Made by a program: the position numbers and the translations under genes. The notes under the pieces are model-generated. The model was given only the letters and a program-made list of their open reading frames with translations. It searched no databases and had not been told where the DNA came from. 64,000 bases of DNA from Cordylochernes scorpioides. Lineage: Eukaryota; Arthropoda; Arachnida; Pseudoscorpiones; Chernetidae. This document shows positions 13,786 through 43,935 of this stretch, piece after piece (within the stretch, counting starts at the first letter, position 1; each line of letters begins with the position of its first letter). The stretch spans positions 62,834,394-62,898,393 of the forward strand of contig CP092875.1 of the NCBI GenBank assembly GCA_030710605.1. Reading direction: 5' to 3'.

Positions 13786-14114
13786 TGTAAAAATAAACTA
13801 TTTAAAAAATAATCTTTTCTCTGGAGGCCTAATATTTTAATTCTAATTTTACCTTTATTCTACCTATGATATCGAATTCAATCTTGATAAGAAAATGGTA
13901 AATTATAACACAAGTTTGTGAAAGCTAACTTAATCAAGCATTTAACAGAAACAAAAAGTGATCATATAATGCGTATGTCATTAATGCATACATTGAAACA
14001 CATTTAATAACATATATATACATATGAAAAAACATTAGAAAGCACATTTTATAAAAGCACATGTGCTCGTGGTCATGAGATGCCTTCTTTATTTTTAATA
14101 TATACATATAAGTG

Positions 14115-14210
14115 TAAATTTCGACCGGAGGATATTGGTCTAAAGAATGATTATCACCTCTCCCGCCAAAATCAACGTAAAAATAGACGCCATCTATTGT
14201 TCGAGAGAGT
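14115..14210 (-). repeat. Fragment of the hammerhead-associated repeat
   Basis: The minus strand reads ATAGATGGCGTCTA, then GGCGGGAGAGGTGA and CAATATCCTCC, matching the repeat around the ribozyme at 42401-42739. It lacks the ribozyme. Confidence 0.5.
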
Positions 14211-14361: not shown

Positions 14362-15666
14362 CAAGGTGTGTCCCATAAGTTCCCGGACTGGGTCCATAAA
14401 AAAAAAAAAGGTAAGATATTTTTTTAAAAAATTATTAAAACTTTTTAAAGTAATCCCCCCTTGCTTCAACGCACCAGCGCCATCGTTTCCCCAAATTGTC
14501 GAAACAGTTTTTATAGAGCTCTTTTGGAATGCTCTTCAATGCCAACAGCGATTTTTCTATTATGTCATCCCTGGTGTCAAAATGTCTTCCTTTTAGAACT
14601 GCTTTAAGTTTGGGGAACAGGAAAAAGTCATTTGGTGCGATGTCTGGGGAATAGGGTGGTTGAGGTAGGATTTCTGTCCCGTTTTTAGCCAAAAAAACTC
14701 GTCACCAAGTGCGCTGTGTGAGGGCGGGCATTGTTATGGTGTAGGATCCAGTCACCATTAGGCCATTTTTCTGGCATTTTTTTTCGAATCGCTTCCCTTA
14801 GATGGCGAAGAATGTCCAAATACATTTCCTTAATAACCGTTTGGCCTGCAGGAAGATACTCGTGATGAACAATGCCCTTGTTATCCAAAAAAGCGACCAG
14901 CAACACCTTGTTTCTGGATTTCAATATCCTGGATTTTTTTGGTATAGGCTCACCCTGACCTCTCCACTCGGCATATTGACGCTTGGTTTCAGGGTCATAG
15001 TCATAGACCCATGTCTCGTCGCCTGTGATTATCTTGTCTTTCCATTCCGGATCCGTTCTTGTCATTTCCAACATGTTCTCACAGGTTGCAAGCCGACACA
15101 GTTTTTGCTCATTAGTGAGGAATCTTGGGATGAATTTTGCAGGAGTCTTTTTGAGCTTCAAATCTTTGGTTACGATCCTTCCAATCGTTGTTTCAGAGAT
15201 GCCTGTGTCTTGCTCTAGCTCCAGCAAAGTGGTTCGAGGATTTTCTTTTATCAAATCGGTGATTTTTTGCACATTTTGGGCGTTCTTGCCGAGGATCATC
15301 TTCAATAGAAATTCTGCCAGCTTTAAATCTAGAATGTCATTCAAAAACAGCTCTTCTCTTTGGGGCGTCATTGGGTAATGCTTTATTAAGCATTTAAAAG
15401 TTTATGTTGCTGATATTTGAAGTTTCACACAAAATGCTATGGAAATCCTCTGCTTCAATTATTGTTTCATCGTAAAATCGCCGCAGCGCTAGGTGTGACC
15501 TTTAAATAAATTAGAATAACTTTGGCGCACGCGCACGTACCGCCTCGATATTGGTACCACCGTGTTGCCAGATATTTTTTCTATAATAAACTGTCAAATA
15601 TATTTACATTTTTCATTTATTTATTTTTTTATGGACCCAGTCCGGGAACTTATGGGACATACCTTG
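14362..15666 (-). mobile_element. mariner element, 1305 bp, TIRs and TA target site
   Basis: The left TIR (14362-14400, CAAGGTGTGTCCCATAAG and onward) is matched by its complement at 15628-15666 with one evident mismatch. Both ends are flanked by TA, the duplicated target of Tc1/mariner. The length is normal for mariner. The interior carries one transposase reading frame on the minus strand, broken as described in the next entry. High TIR identity suggests fairly recent insertion. Confidence 0.92.
14435..15371 (-). pseudogene. mariner transposase, frameshifted and catalytically defective
   Basis: The first 228 codons start with ATG at 15371 and show a helix-turn-helix segment (about residues 50-70, ISETTIGRIV), then TGDETWVYDYD with the first catalytic Asp at residue 118. 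The second catalytic block reads LHHNNARPHTA, where the family has His-Asp-Asn-Ala-Arg-Pro, so the second Asp is Asn (about residue 213). The frame then hits a stop near 14685 at a seven-A run (plus strand). Reading resumes one frame over with PYSPDIAPNDFFLF, which keeps the third Asp, and ends at 14435. The total of about 310 codons is close to the normal 345. The frameshift and the Asp-to-Asn change both predict loss of activity. A long-read homopolymer error could explain the frameshift but not the substitution. Confidence 0.92.
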
Positions 15667-26899: not shown

Positions 26900-28470
26900 A
26901 AGGTTGTTATACAAAGTTGGAGTGTAAGGAGGTCTTAAAAACCTCCCTCAATTTTAGATAAAGCCGCTGTGTAAACCTTTTATCAGTTTCCTCGGTTCCT
27001 TCTTCTTCATCTCTCACTTGGATATGTCTCTCTCTATATGTTATTAAAATATTTCATTTCATTTTAATTTATGTTTTCTAGAAAAAAACTACTCTGTAAA
27101 TTCGACTAGATGTTTCTGCTTTCCCTATATACACATATTGTTGTTTTTTTCCCCTTGGCTGTAATAATTAATGACTTAAGGATTGAAGAATACATTTAAA
27201 AAAATAACTACATATTTACATATCTACAGAAATATTTGAGCCGGCCAACGGGAAAAGAGAGAAAGCGAATATGGTTACATATATAATTTTCTTTATAAAA
27301 CGATAAAATATATCAGTAAATATATTTACTTTTTTGTCTCTTTCTTCAATCTCTGAAATTAAATCATTAATGGGATATTTGTCAATATAAACGGTTATCG
27401 TATATAATTTTAAATTGAATTTGAAGACAAATAATTCAAGCGATCTCTACCAAAAACGTCAAAATTATTAGTTCCATTAACAGAATTCAAAACATCACAG
27501 TCATAAATCCAAATTACTAATATTTAATAGAGATATTGCTAAACAGTGCTTCAGGGCATTTTTCAAAGTAATAAATTGATTCCAAAAGATAATCGCTCAT
27601 TTCCCGCCATTTCTAGAGAGCGAGGTGGGATAATAGAAATATTCAAATATCCATCAAAAATTTGCCCCCAGGATCTATCTTTTGGTCCGTTTTATTTCCT
27701 TTATTTCTATCAGAGATTTTTATTATTTTTTTCCTAAATCGTCTGATATTTATTTATTTTTGACCGAATCTTCTTTTACATTAAAGTTTGTTTTCTAGGC
27801 CAAAAAGGAAAACTAGATTATCTGGAGGCATAATCTTAAGACTATTTTCGCGCCTTCTAAATATGGCTTTAAATTTGATAAAATATTATATTTAAATTTT
27901 TGTGGAAAGGATGAATAACTTGATTTATAAATATTTACGAGATGTTATTCTGAATATAAATCAGCACAATCTCTTACTTCAGTATTGAGAAAATATAATC
28001 TAACTTTTATAAATTATATTTTTATTTTACGCAATATTTTCTGAGGGAATAACAATATTTGTATCTTTCCCTTGACTTTATCTAATTAAATTGATATTTT
28101 ATTTTCACAATTTTATGTTTTACTTTCAAAATATATCATTCAAATAGCTTCGATATATATTTAAAATAATAATAATAAGATAGGCTGTGTGTAATAAAAC
28201 TCGTATACCTTTTTTAAAATATCATAAATTATACATTCGTTTTTTTTATATATAAGAAGAAAATAAAATTAAAAAGTAATATTTGAATTTCGTTTTGGGG
28301 GGATACATTTATAGATACCGGGTATGCTTGCACTCATATACATGCGCGCGCATATATATATATTTATATGACAAAACAATAGAAAAAAATAAAAGATAGG
28401 TGGGTCAGGTGTTTATATTAAAAATAAAAAAAAAAACACATGTGCTTGTGGTCAGGAAATGCCTTCTTTA
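26900..28470. other. Gene-poor AT-rich stretch
   Basis: Short open frames only. One fragment (27180-27265) belongs to the GAGCCGGCC family. I see no coding exon, RNA gene or paired element ends. Confidence 0.35.

Positions 28471-28476
<6 letters not shown>

Positions 28477-28507
<31 letters not shown>
28477..28507. repeat. (AT)n microsatellite
   Basis: An uninterrupted TA/AT run of about 30 bp. Confidence 0.9.
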
Positions 28508-30759: not shown

Positions 30760-31036
30760 TCCCGCATGTGTTTCTTTTGAAGGAAAAATCGAAATTTATT
30801 TTAAGGAGAAATAAAGATTATTTCGACCTTATGGATGAAGTATTAAAGGATGAATTGTGAAGAGTAATGATAAACGGAAAAATAAAGTGTCCAGGGATGG
30901 GAAACGAACCCACAGTGTTCCGCTTACCGGGAAGATGCCATGTCCACTAGGCTACCCTGGACATATTTTTCCGTTCGTAAATAATACATAAAGTAATTTA
31001 TAATACAATATAATACGGCTTATGATTGTAATTTTT
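30760..31036 (-). mobile_element. Second copy of the tRNA-like element
   Basis: Minus-strand order matches 18122-18392: AATCATAAGCCGTATTATAT, ACGAACGGAAAAATATGTCC, the tRNA-like core, CACTTTATTTTTCCGTTT, GTCATTACTCTTCACAATTC-like, then AAACACATGCGGGATAATTT. Only one copy of the 40-bp terminal block is present here. Confidence 0.6.
30889..30962 (-). tRNA. tRNA-like sequence (probable pseudogene or SINE head)
   Basis: On the minus strand 74 nt run from GTCCAGGGTAGCCTAGTGGA to CCCATCCCTGGAC. There is a 7-bp acceptor stem (GTCCAGG/CCTGGAC), a D arm (AGCC..TGGC), and a T arm (GTGGG, TTCGTTT, CCCAT). The anticodon arm pairs poorly (TTCC with GGAA around eight bases), so I assign no anticodon. It sits inside an inverted repeat (CGAACGG..CCGTT), which real tRNA genes lack. 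A functional tRNA is unlikely. Confidence 0.45.
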
Positions 31037-31999: not shown

Positions 32000-33020
32000 A
32001 CAATAGGAGGGCGCCATTACAAAAAAAAAAAAAAGCAAACGGTGACAGAGACGAAAACTGACTGATGATTAAGAGATGAAGAATGACGCTCGTAACTGTA
32101 TATAGAATGTAATCAAAGCTATTTATTCAGAATTGTTCAAAAGTAAGGCATCAAGAAAGAGACAAAAAAAGAGAGACAATAAACAGACTATAGATAATAG
32201 ACATTAAAGAAAGCTTATTGACAACCTGAAGTGTATAAATAAACACAAAATACTATTGGTTATATCAACTAAGTGCAGCAGTTAGTTTTCAAACGACACT
32301 TGTATTTAGGAATAGAACAAAAAAAAAAACAAACAAGAAGCTTTTGTGCCTTTTTCTTCTTTCTCTCCCAACAAGGAAAAGAAAAAAACAATTAGGGAAA
32401 GCAATTTGGCTAGAAAAGTAGGAGACCTCCCGAGTGCCATTTTTGCTGACTCATTAAGGTTTACAGTACTGCGGACCTAATATTTCACACGTACCTCCTC
32501 TACTTTACATAGATAGCATGGGAATAGAGGTTTCTACGATGCGTGTTCTCTAGGATTTATAATGGTTAAAACTAATATGTTTCTAAACCAAAACACTTAT
32601 AATAATTTTACAAGTATTTTCAATATAAAGAATTTTCCTCTATAAAGATAGAATTATCTCAACTTATAGCTATGCCTGTGGAAGGATTATAAAGATAGGA
32701 AAGTTTGAATTTTGCACGAATAAAGAAACGCATTGCTATTGTTTATATATTTTATATTTCATAGCAATTTTCTCTTTTAGTGCAATATTTTAATAAAGAT
32801 AGGAGGCCATAGATATATTATAAGCGGGATTCAATCAATCAAATAGGGGAAAACATACATATAAACTGATTAAGGCATATAATATATGGACTAAAATAAC
32901 ATCCTTATATTAGAATATACAATAAAAAAATCGATTATTTCGAAAGCAAGATAAAAAAATATCTATTTGTATATGATTATCATCATACCGTAACTTTTGT
33001 TGTATTCTTGCCTGAAAATC
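32000..33020. other. Gene-poor stretch
   Basis: Only a fragment of the 54.3-kb tandem unit (32665-32770: CCTGTGGAAGGATTATAAAG, AATAAAGAAACGCATTGCTA) is recognisable. No gene seen. Confidence 0.35.
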
Positions 33021-33023
33021 GAC

Positions 33024-33211
33024 CCTTGCCACTTTACCAGCTTTTAACACCAGTTTGGTAAATGCGACAGATTTCATAATCTCTCCCGTACGATGTTATG
33101 GAATCGAAGACGTCCCTGTACTGATGAGGGCCATAGCCTGAAACCATGGTATACTGGTTGTTGGCTTTTTGTCTGAATTCACCAGAACTAGTGTTTTGGC
33201 TCATTCTTTAT
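33024..33211 (+). repeat. Hammerhead-carrying repeat, copy 2
   Basis: Aligns in order with 42486-42642: GCCACTTTACCAGC, ACACCAGTTTGGTA, GATGTTATGGAATCGAAGAC, the ribozyme, then TGTCTGAATTCACCAGAAC and GTGTTTTGGCTC. The flanking 307-bp direct repeat seen at 42.4 kb is absent. Confidence 0.65.
33112..33149 (+). ncRNA. Hammerhead ribozyme motif, type I, nearly intact
   Basis: GTCCCTGTA (stem I 5') is followed by CTGATGA (33121-33127). Stem II is GGGC pairing with GCCT around CATA. Then come GAAA and a minimal stem III (AC, loop CATG, GT). The cleavage triplet would be GTA, with stem I 3' TACTGG. Stem I pairs as three base pairs, one T/T mismatch and two more pairs, weaker than the 42.55-kb copy. 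All 11 core nucleotides are present. Self-cleavage is predicted but perhaps slow. Confidence 0.65.
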
Positions 33212-34505: not shown

Positions 34506-35049
34506 TAATTTATTATATTTGTTATTCATGTTATAACAATAGGAATTCTCACTAAGATAGGAATTTAAAGGCTAATAATGGATACAATTATCCTACCAAT
34601 AAAGAGATTATAATGTAACAGACAATAGCCCCAATTAATTCCAAGAGAAATACCAAAGAGGTCATTATAGCAACAAGACAACCCTTATTTAACTTTTGTA
34701 GCAAAAAGTCAAATTGCAACATCCTTATCAATAGAGCTCTTAATTATAAAGGAGCTTGTCTCTAAAATTGATTTTAATTAAAATTCTACAGAGTGTTTTC
34801 CAGGAATAGTTATGTAACGCCTCTGGTTTCATAGATTTTTTCTATTCTTAACTCACTAAAATTTTGTAAAGGTTAACGGAAGTTTTACGATGCTTCAGAT
34901 TATCTATGTTTTATATTTGAAATTCTTCAGAGAGTTAGAAATGTTTATTTGAATATTTTTAATAAATAAATTCTAACATAGCACGTCATCTAAATATATG
35001 AAACAATTTAATTTATAAACATTATATTGACAGCAAATATTTTGAAAAA

Positions 35050-35330
35050 TAGTACAAATATTATATTGTACTGGGATAAGGTGCCTACATTATGAAAAAT
35101 AAAAAGGCATATTCTTATCGTGCAACTGAACGTTTCTGATTGCTTGCGCCATCTATAAAAATAAATATCAACTATTCGTTGATTTTTAAATTATTCCAGA
35201 ATTGGCCAAATATCCATTCTTGATTATTCAAGAAAAACTAAGGTATTTGGCCAATTCTGGAATAATTAAAAATCAACGATTCAGCAGCTCTCACTTGCAA
35301 AATAAGGAGATGCCTTTTTATTTTTCATAC
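35050..35330. repeat. Foldback MITE-like element, clearest copy
   Basis: GTTGATTTTTAAATTATTCC and AGAATTGGCCAAATATCC (35189-35220) face GGTATTTGGCCAATTCTGGA and ATAATTAAAAATCAACG (35242-35279). Outer ends AAAAAGGCATATTCTTATCG and AATAAGGAGATGCCTTTTT are also inverted. About 245 bp. Confidence 0.7.
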
Positions 35331-40990: not shown

Positions 40991-41732
40991 TATATATTCC
41001 TTTAGCTCAATTAAAGCAATTACTGTTCAAAACCATTTTTAGTATTATACTTTCAGGATTTTAACCAAGACTGTATTACAATAGCATAATCCTCAAGATA
41101 AATGATATCAAAAGAAATCTCCTTTTTATTTATAACATATATATACCCAATTAATAAGACTACTACGTATTAATATTGCATGTCTGTGTATGTGTACCTG
41201 TGTGGAAAAAAAAGAAAATATATATATTAGAAGGTGACATTAAAAATATCATTATATATATAATAATTTAAATCAACGTTAAGTTGAATTTTATTCCACT
41301 AAATGGCGCTATGCCATATAAAAATACTAATATGAGCGGTTGTCTTTTACCTCAATCTACAAAACCTGGTGTAGAGGCTTTATAACCAGATATTAAGTTA
41401 TTTTACTGAAGTGATAATCAAAATATATATGTTCTTTATCTGAAAATAGAGCAATCCATAATATATACATATATTTTTAAAATATGGCTTATTTTGGATT
41501 GTGATAAGTTTATTTATTGATCCAATATTTTATTTATAATCTTTTATTTGTTTAATTAATTCGAAATCTCTTAATTATAAATATTTATTTATATATATTA
41601 CATTGTTTTTCTTTTGATTATATTTACTTTGTTTAAAATGTATATATTAGATGGTTTATCGTCCAATAAGCTTGCAAGACGTCCGTGGCTCACCTGAAGC
41701 ACGCGACCTGCTGCGTGCTTCATATAAAAAAA

Positions 41733-41995: not shown

Positions 41996-42317
41996 TTGTT
42001 CTTATGCATACTTTTAAAGGGAGAAATGCCTCGTTTGATGTGTGTGGGGATGTGTGTATAACCTGGCTTCGCCCGTGTTCTGAGCGTGTGAATGCTCGCC
42101 GATAGAATATTGTTTATGCAGATCAAACACATCATTAAGTATTATACTCATCATTTATGATTTTAAAATAAGTAAATTAAACCAGTACTTGGTTATTTTG
42201 AATATGCCAAGGTTGAAAATATGACAAAAACTATTTGCATACTTATCTATTTATCCTGTTAAAATTCTACCATATTGGTCAAATATTGTATAAAGGTATA
42301 AGGAACCAATAGTTAAA

Positions 42318-42466
42318 AATATAGATGGAAATTTTCCCGTGAGGATATTAATTTAAAGAGACAAAGGTCGCCTCTCCCGTCAAAATAGACGTCAAAATTT
42401 TGACGGGAGAGGCGACCTTTGTCTCTTTAGATCAATATCCTCACGGGAAAATTTACATCTATATTA
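42318..42466. repeat. Foldback next to the hammerhead unit
   Basis: AATATAGATGG, TTTTCCCGTGAGGATATTAA and AAGGTCGCCTCTCCCGTCAA on the left are mirrored by TTGACGGGAGAGGCGACCTT and CAATATCCTCACGGGAAAA on the right, arms of about 67 bp around AGACGTCA. Confidence 0.8.
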
Positions 42467-42739
42467 TAGCCATAGATTTGTCCCAGCCACTTTGCCAGCT
42501 AAACACCTATTTGGCAGATTGTCAAGATTGTGGATCTCATGGAATAAAGTCCGCCCTAGACTGATGAGGGCCATTAGCCCGAAACCATGGTCTCTAGGTG
42601 GACGCTTTACAGTTTGCCAAACCTGGTGTTGTGGCTTTGTCACCGACCCGAGGTCGCTAGTTTGCGGCGACGGTCGAATAGATGGCGTCTAGTTTTGACG
42701 TCTATTTTGACGGGAGAGGCGACCTTTGTCTCTTTAGAT
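42401..42739 (+). repeat. Retrozyme-like 307-bp unit with direct-repeat ends
   Basis: TGACGGGAGAGGCGACCTTT and GTCTCTTTAGAT occur at 42401-42432 and again at 42708-42739, a 307-bp period. Between lie the GCCACTTTGCCAGC block, the hammerhead and GCGACGGTCGAATAGATGGC. Units repeated head to tail and carrying a type I hammerhead are a hallmark of retrozymes and Penelope-like terminal repeats (established knowledge). Only one full unit is present. No protein is encoded. Confidence 0.6.
42549..42603 (+). ncRNA. Hammerhead ribozyme, type I, all core nucleotides present
   Basis: Stem I 5' strand GTCC-GC-CCTAGA (42549-42560); core CTGATGA (42561-42567); stem II GGGC/GCCC with loop CATTA (42568-42580); core GAA and A15.1 (42581-42584). 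Stem III is minimal (AC, loop CATG, GT). The cleavage site follows C42592 in a GTC triplet. Stem I 3' strand is TCTAGG-T-GGAC (42593-42603). Stem I pairs perfectly as 6 bp, a small internal loop and 4 bp. The short stem III and open stem I match hammerheads described in Penelope-like elements and animal retrozymes. Predicted activity is self-cleavage of the plus-strand transcript. It is not a protein-coding region; overlapping short frames are chance. Confidence 0.85.
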
Positions 42740-42782
42740 AAAAATATATATTATTTGAATTTTTATATGAAGATAATTCAAT

Positions 42783-43645: not shown

Positions 43646-43935
43646 GTCTAGAGTGGTCGCTATAGTCAGGGTGGTCTGTATAGACAGGTGTATGTATCTC
43701 ACTGCTGTTAACAGGGTTGCCTAGAGTGACCGCTATAGACAGGGTGGTCTGTATAGACAGGTGAATGTAACACACTGGTGATAACAGGGTTGTCTAGAGT
43801 GGCCGCTATAGACAGAGTGGTCTGTTTAGACAGGTGGATGTAGCACACTGCTGATAACAGGGTTGTCTAGAGTGGCCGCTATAGACAGGTGTATGTATCG
43901 CACAGCTGATAACAGGGTTGTCTAGAGGGGGGGCA
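43646..43935 (+). repeat. 73-bp minisatellite abutting the gap
   Basis: Units (GTCTAGAGTGGCCGCTATAG and onward) start at 43646, 43719, 43792 and 43865, a constant 73-bp period; the last unit is shortened. The core CGCTATAGACAG matches the end of the MITEs at 45236 and 57677. The array probably extends into the gap. Confidence 0.85.

Follow-up and report, generated by a model that had tools for sequence, protein, structure and literature searches.

Two-armed insertions of a hammerhead retrozyme in a pseudoscorpion genome suggest priming by a Penelope-type enzyme

Introduction

The closest described relatives of the element reported here are the metazoan retrozymes that lack long terminal repeats (LTRs), known from Mytilus, Acropora and the axolotl, in which a type I hammerhead ribozyme sits in a unit several hundred base pairs long that can form tandem arrays and is present in thousands of copies (PMC7229834). 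Penelope-like elements were named there as strong candidate carriers of animal retrozymes, on the basis of co-occurrence, tandem copies, and shared hammerheads. Penelope integration is described as involving cutting and extension of both target strands, two internal start sites, and an optional tail of 30 to 40 bp (PMC11167929); the inverted pseudo-LTRs carry a 31-bp tail on one of the two, and head-to-head order is the commonest (PMC3846280). We analyzed a 64,000-nucleotide (nt) stretch of the genome of the pseudoscorpion Cordylochernes scorpioides (assembly GCA_030710605.1, contig CP092875.1, positions 62,834,394 to 62,898,393), called the window below, which contains a type I hammerhead at positions 42549 to 42603 (+ strand). 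Like the published retrozymes, this hammerhead belongs to a short unit with thousands of core copies, here called RZ1. The ribozyme in the window is ordinary for its kind, and the valuable part is the insertion signature: most RZ1 insertions consist of two inverted arms whose outer 3′ ends fall at two fixed sites, a plan probably due to a Penelope-type reverse transcriptase-endonuclease that inserts RZ1 RNA and is primed on both strands of the target. Among the openly available papers surveyed, judged mostly by title and the opening of the abstract, none that came up describes retrozyme insertions in which a tailed end is paired with an untailed one. What is new is the insertion anatomy; carriage by Penelope-like elements had previously been only a guess.

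Results

Most RZ1 insertions have two inverted arms with outer ends at two sites

RZ1 is a repeat of ∼307 to 319 nt of the metazoan non-LTR retrozyme kind, that is, a hammerhead within a repeat of 150 to 450 bp that can occur in tandem. The window copy consists of a direct arm with a 307-nt period (42397 to 42745, + strand), comprising one unit followed by a 42-nt repeat of the unit start, and an inverted arm (42318 to 42396, − strand) joined to it 5′ to 5′. The right outer end of the direct arm corresponds to what we call site A and the left outer end of the inverted arm to site B; within the direct arm, the two regions, placed from outward 3′ ends, lie at 42429 to 42438 (A, unit coordinates 33 to 42, + strand) and 42462 to 42465 (B, unit coordinates 66 to 69, + strand). 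The copy is flanked on either side by TAAAAATATA, at 42314 to 42323 and 42739 to 42748 (coordinates read from the sequence), each duplicate overlapping an element end.

We surveyed 110 RZ1 loci: the 30 best matches to the ribozyme region, 60 around exact ribozyme cores (contigs C1 to C7), and 20 found with a non-ribozyme stretch. They gave 123 clusters, of which 103 insertions were kept once 10 duplicates (recognized by shared flanks), 6 copies cut by a locus edge, and 4 shorter than 60 nt had been dropped. The strand order was −+ in 68 insertions, which therefore have two inverted arms, a 5′-to-5′ junction, and both 3′ ends outward; 19 insertions were + alone, 16 were − alone, and none was +−. 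Outward 3′ ends (n = 171) fell at unit coordinates 26 to 46 (site A) in 71 cases, at 56 to 76 (site B) in 70, and elsewhere in 30, so that two sites ∼35 nt apart account for 141 of the 171. Outward 5′ ends (n = 35) were scattered, with 3 in the A window and 0 in the B window. The two outer ends of one insertion tended to differ: 46 of the 68 −+ insertions had one A and one B end, 6 had two alike, and 16 had at least one end outside the windows, so that, of the 52 with both ends classed, 46 paired an A end with a B end (binomial P = 1e-8). At the loci recruited without the ribozyme (17 of 20 after the drops), A or B made up 27 of 30 outward 3′ ends.

The inner ends of the arms behave differently. 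Inner junctions vary among copies and often show short overlaps; the inner unit coordinates of paired arms lay within 5 nt of each other in 5 of 68 insertions, with a median difference of 68.5 nt. Partner arms were 91.4% identical, versus 87.3% for other arms. Just upstream of site A lies a hairpin, AGAGGCG/TGTCTCT, at 42408 to 42426 in the window copy (+ strand; second copy at 42715 to 42733). In an alignment of 24 hand-picked copies, two of which (L007 and L102) align poorly, 3 of its 7 pairs had changed on both sides, a count reached by 2 of 500 shuffles, and no shuffle of 500 reached its covariation score.

Target sites and templates

The flanks of the 68 −+ insertions shared runs of at least 8 nt in 37 cases, versus 4.6 expected when junction windows were re-paired within end class, and of at least 10 nt in 25 cases, versus 0.57 expected. 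These runs (8 to 17 nt) frequently extend into the element ends and so set bounds on the target duplication without giving its exact length; duplications exceed 4 bp, as in metazoan retrozymes. ATATAT occurred near an end in 39 of the 103 insertions, compared with 7 in windows 250 nt away. RZ1 insertions show head-to-head arms, an optional tail of ∼30 to 40 nt, and short target duplications.

Arm lengths bear on the template. Among the 141 arms starting at A or B, 37 were longer than one unit (319 nt) and 91 longer than 177 nt; in the less biased set, recruited without the ribozyme, 10 of 27 arms reached at least 180 nt. Cut linear monomers were considered as the main template and rejected: arm 5′ ends are scattered, insertions read through the cleavage site, no 5′ ends pile up there, and only 3 of the 141 arms stop at 211 to 212 with a length of at most one unit. 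Given the lack of a pile-up at the ribozyme cut and the 37 arms that exceed one unit, the templates were probably circular or multimeric RNA.

RZ1 is a non-coding retrozyme with dispersed and tandem copies

No open reading frame (ORF) of at least 100 amino acids with an ATG, GTG, or TTG start was found in 42318 to 42745, consistent with a non-coding element; a 111-codon frame runs from stop to stop at 42357 to 42692. Contig C5 holds a tandem array of the unit with a 319-nt period. This array and the window copy (307 nt) represent two subfamilies, between which the 55-nt ribozyme is identical at 54 of 55 positions and the rest of the unit at 208 of 250, with 16 gap columns (Fisher P = 0.002). 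Across 16 array units, mean divergence was 0.013 in the ribozyme versus 0.030 in the rest. The circles predicted for the units are strongly self-paired and exceed mononucleotide shuffles in stability (z = −3.1 and −6.0). By its sequence features RZ1 is a non-coding metazoan retrozyme with very many dispersed copies and tandem arrays, so that the assignment to animal retrozymes made in the sequence-only reading of this DNA is supported by unit, arrays, and copy number. An older RZ1 copy, ∼66% identical and with a decayed hammerhead at 33121, lies at 33003 to 33201 (+ strand) of the window.

Penelope-like elements of the same genome share the two-armed plan

A search of the genome for GIY-YIG endonuclease sequences gave at least 146 matches, and among the matches listed, neighboring pairs less than 12 kb apart were ordered −+ in 11 of 11 cases. 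In the pair at C1:119.8 Mb, the arms match (98.4% over 699 nt) up to the point where one of them ends, beyond which the other continues into a tail of ∼35 to 40 nt. In the pair at C14:2.4 Mb, no differences are seen between the aligned arms; again only one of them continues, into nearly the same tail, and GATTCAGGTAAT is common to both flanks. A tail of ∼33 to 40 nt was on one arm only in both pairs read, with end points judged by eye.

In another family (locus L010), an RVT_1 reverse transcriptase domain (31.8 bits; cutoff, 29.6) directly precedes GIY-YIG (23.4 bits; cutoff, 22.6) in adjoining frames. RZ1 has no long ORF and shows none for either domain, and the elements with these domains are separate in the genome. 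The hammerheads of the Penelope-like elements read here are shorter than that of RZ1, with an even shorter stem III (GAAACGUC; GAAACGUU). GIY-YIG-like tblastn matches were also seen near RZ1 copies at L009, L010, L056, L060, and L083, the last three being weak (E = 0.002 to 0.01); in Pfam searches of these loci, L010 gave the two domains already described, and L060 gave none.

The window hammerhead and its stem III

The sequence-only reading had described a complete type I hammerhead with core CTGATGA, GAAA, and GTC, and the letters, read directly in the window, are as claimed. Stem I has an outer part (GTCCGCC/GGTGGAC) and an inner part (TAGA/TCTA) separated by a small internal loop; it is followed by the core CTGATGA, by stem II (GGGC/GCCC with loop CATTA; 42568 to 42580, + strand, from the letters and the covariation test below), and then by GAAA and GTC. 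The palindromic CCATGG region of stem III together with the GTC triplet occupies 42585 to 42592 (+ strand, read from the letters), and cleavage is predicted after C42592. In GAAA-CCAUGG-UC, stem III could form no more than 2 bp, closing a loop of 2 nt. The sequence-only reading had given it as a minimal 2-bp hairpin; a better reading is a single C-G pair with the palindromic tetraloop CAUG as its cap. Such a palindromic CAUG stem III is described for amphibian retrozymes that cleave better as dimers (PMC7229834). Judging from that paper and the title of one reference, the palindromic stem III regions CAUG, CGCG, and ACGU suggest dimeric action. In the predicted monomer fold of the window sequence, core bases pair with the CAUG loop, and its stem III is, on sequence grounds, probably of the palindromic, dimer-acting kind.

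A loose core pattern matched once in the window, versus 0.18 expected, and 16 of 100 shuffles held at least one match; the motif alone therefore does not bear out the claim that chance assembly is very unlikely. What excludes chance is the genome-wide count: the exact 32-nt core occurs in 234 copies, and the core relaxed at six positions in 12,104 copies in the 2.6-Gb genome, with 0 matches for the reversed-pattern control in either case. Against this stands the Rfam search of the whole window, in which no hammerhead family reached the gathering threshold and only a tRNA passed. The best hit of a local search with E up to 10 was RF02275 (Hammerhead_HH9), which has the same core and similar stems, at 26.6 bits (gathering, 52; E = 1e-4); technically, this is the outcome that the sequence-only reading had named as its refutation. 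A genome search with RF00163 gave 0 matches, as it did in all 14 control genomes, and is therefore uninformative. With a conserved core, three stems, and an opening at stem I, and with its copies throughout the genome, the hammerhead at 42549 to 42603 is real as judged from sequence, though below Rfam gathering.

Position 7 is known as the sole core position of the hammerhead that tolerates any base. The U found there in the window copy is a minority choice, CTGACGA being present at 95 of 100 places read by eye, namely, the first 100 listed of the 12,104, all from the start of contig C1. Ten neighbors less than 1 kb apart among these 100 places were ordered −+ (8), −− (1), and ++ (1), never +−. 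Across 142 aligned copies (full-length only, from 173 matches, most loci having been recruited through the ribozyme), position 7 showed all four bases, and other core positions differed in 1 to 4% of copies. The 50% figure for position 7 in this set is not a genome frequency, because 60 of 112 loci were chosen for T and 30 by likeness to a T-bearing query.

A second family, RZ2

Alongside RZ1 the genome holds a second family, RZ2, with 13,832 core matches (control, 0). Its stem I differs from that of RZ1 in its letters, yet five inner pairs hold in 6 of 7 RZ2 sequences; in stem II, one G-C pair of RZ1 is turned into C-G. Over one alignment of 24 RZ1 and RZ2 sequences (22 rows picked from 77 distinct sequences, plus 2 from another set), 95.8% of stem II cells pair, and both this pairing and the covariation score exceed all of 500 shuffles, whereas a change on both sides, seen in 1 of 4 pairs, is a count that 211 of 500 shuffles reach. 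The loci examined gave 42 listed RZ2 matches, of which 38 were left after removal of one double listing (L001 lies in the window) and three copies cut by a locus edge. Of their 38 ends, 22 lay at query positions 191 to 208, 11 at 230 to 243, and 5 elsewhere, in a count that includes the query copy, may hold further duplicates, and uses a query ending at 243. A clear case of arms longer than one unit, judged by coordinates only, is an RZ2 array at C1:5646959-5649258, in which an arm of two − cores meets an arm of five + cores head to head, the spacing within each arm being 350 nt.

RZ2 copies or fragments occur in the window at 14053 to 14106, 28373 to 28480, 35045 to 35236, and 41269 to 41324; the copy at 28373 to 28480 has head-to-head arms and shows each kind of end once. 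RZ2 and RZ1 adjoin 3′ end to 3′ end at 14053 to 14199 of the window and at L054, L086, L094, and L098, often with an AT run between them, which might be due to a target preference common to both families or to insertion close to a tail already in place. The CTAGATGGCGCT-like motif of RZ2 (L054, L086, and L098) and the TAGATGGCGTC-like motif of RZ1 are reminiscent of the invertebrate CTCF site.

Other features of the window are a piece of a Mariner/Tc1-type transposase at 14685 to 15401 (− strand; PF01359, 49.1 bits), a tRNA match at 30889 to 30961 (− strand; RF00005, 40.2 bits), either a gene or a repeat, and a ∼73-nt tandem repeat at 43646 to 43930, near the retrozyme copy.

Discussion

The insertion anatomy makes it probable, in our judgment, that a reverse transcriptase-endonuclease of the Penelope type inserts RZ1 RNA, with both strands of the target serving as primers. 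The ribozyme, probably in dimeric form, would cleave RZ1 transcripts longer than one unit, the products would be circularized, and a Penelope-like protein of the same genome, with a GIY-YIG endonuclease and a reverse transcriptase, would bind this RNA. The enzyme would cut an AT-rich target on its two strands, at points not far from each other, and DNA synthesis would be primed from both cut ends, one at site A beside the conserved hairpin and the other at site B, ∼35 nt further 3′. Each enzyme might travel around the RNA for a partial turn or for several turns; joining of the far ends of the two complementary DNAs (cDNAs) would then give an inverted, 5′-to-5′ insertion that is flanked by a short target duplication and has a tail at one of its 3′ ends but not at the other. 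We lean slightly toward a wider reading, in which animal retrozymes parasitize Penelope-like elements, a dimeric enzyme has a fixed division of start sites between the target strands (B tailed and A untailed), and several turns on circular RNA write head-to-head tandem satellites directly, as in the RZ2 array on contig C1.

Several observations weigh against priming by a Penelope-type enzyme or against parts of this scheme. No significant sequence likeness links RZ1 to either of the two Penelope tails (233 to 901 of 1,000 shuffles score as high), and the link to the enzyme therefore rests on anatomy, not on a shared tail. RZ2 versus one Penelope tail (5 of 1,000) and RZ1 versus RZ2 (29 of 1,000) are suggestive only, being uncorrected for eight comparisons, and a four-way alignment at site A shows a loose, AT-rich resemblance by eye. 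The comparison covers two GIY-YIG pairs, read from their ends and the GIY-YIG match, with the reverse transcriptase part outside the stretch read; the first (L111 and L112; C1:119.8 Mb) is embedded in an inverted ∼64-nt satellite and for this reason gives no clean target duplication. Of the 110 RZ1 loci, 90 were chosen via the ribozyme, and the A and B windows were drawn after a first histogram of the data. An arm's partner was its best match in just 14 of 96 arms; the two arms may copy the same RNA or different ones. A wider stem enclosing site A was convincing in single folds, failed covariation controls, and is not claimed. In vitro, Penelope showed no difference in start site from one strand to the other, which does not favor a fixed rule of one A and one B (PMC11167929).

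LINEs (long interspersed nuclear elements) also produce target duplications of ∼10 bp and inversions, and together with the lack of significant sequence common to RZ1 and the Penelope tails this leaves room for movement by L1- or other LINE-type machinery, with the inverted arms as ordinary products of twin priming. Such products would have a single fixed 3′ end outside, whereas RZ1 has a 3′ end on either outer side, at fixed site A on one and fixed site B on the other; the RZ1 ends inspected have no consistent A-tail, and the two GIY-YIG pairs read in the same genome follow the plan of RZ1, so we consider LINE machinery unlikely. A single cDNA that folds back and primes itself, instead of two primings, has been discussed for rotifer Penelope, where palindromic junctions were read in this way (PMC3846280), and the short overlaps frequent at RZ1 inner junctions would fit. 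Fold-back predicts mirror-image arms, which are rare here, as the inner coordinates show, and the outer ends are unlike, A versus B; we regard this route as very unlikely.

Tandem arrays and the palindromic look of the copies might also suggest a satellite spread by recombination, or an inverted-end DNA transposon spread by a transposase, in which a hammerhead is present by chance. Copies differ in their inner junction, however, and their two ends do not repeat a single terminus in inverted form; target duplications and dispersed copies speak against a mere satellite, and we find this origin highly improbable. The question whether cleavage matters for spread is separate. RZ1 insertions read through the cleavage site, and ribozyme mutants did not impair insertion in vitro (PMC11167929), as expected if the hammerhead were a non-functional relic whose sequence, rather than cleavage, matters. 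That the stems still pair between RZ1 and RZ2 despite different letters, that the core shows little variation apart from position 7 (in a sample chosen in part for that core), and that two largely different units keep the hammerhead in thousands of copies make a relic doubtful, and we give it little credence. Priming from both target strands by a Penelope-type enzyme remains our preferred explanation.

The paired A/B ends offer a direct, countable test for any retrozyme-bearing genome, one that makes the guess that Penelope moves retrozymes countable and testable, and they predict precisely where synthesis should start in vitro. The tendency toward one A and one B end also bears on the integration of Penelope itself, in which tails have been called “optional.”

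Plant LTR retrozymes resemble RZ1 in being non-autonomous, in carrying a hammerhead, and in the idea of a circular RNA (PMC4918200); they differ in having type III hammerheads, LTRs, and 4-bp target duplications (PMC7229834), whereas the hammerhead of RZ1 is of type I and its duplications are longer. Metazoan retrozymes are closer: by description rather than by unit-to-unit sequence comparison, they share with RZ1 a self-paired predicted circle, target duplications of more than 4 bp, and Penelope-like elements in the same genome (PMC7229834). RZ1 differs in its inverted, 5′-to-5′ plan with paired A and B ends; the words “inverted” and “head-to-head” are absent from the main text of that paper. 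From Penelope-like elements RZ1 is set apart by the lack of a reverse transcriptase or endonuclease ORF, a different tail sequence, a longer stem I, and the CAUG loop. In the plan of insertion, the likeness is to endonuclease-containing Penelope-like elements, which have, like RZ1, head-to-head arms, a tail of ∼31 to 40 nt on one arm, short target duplications, AT-rich targets, and a hammerhead upstream of the start sites (PMC11167929; PMC3846280).
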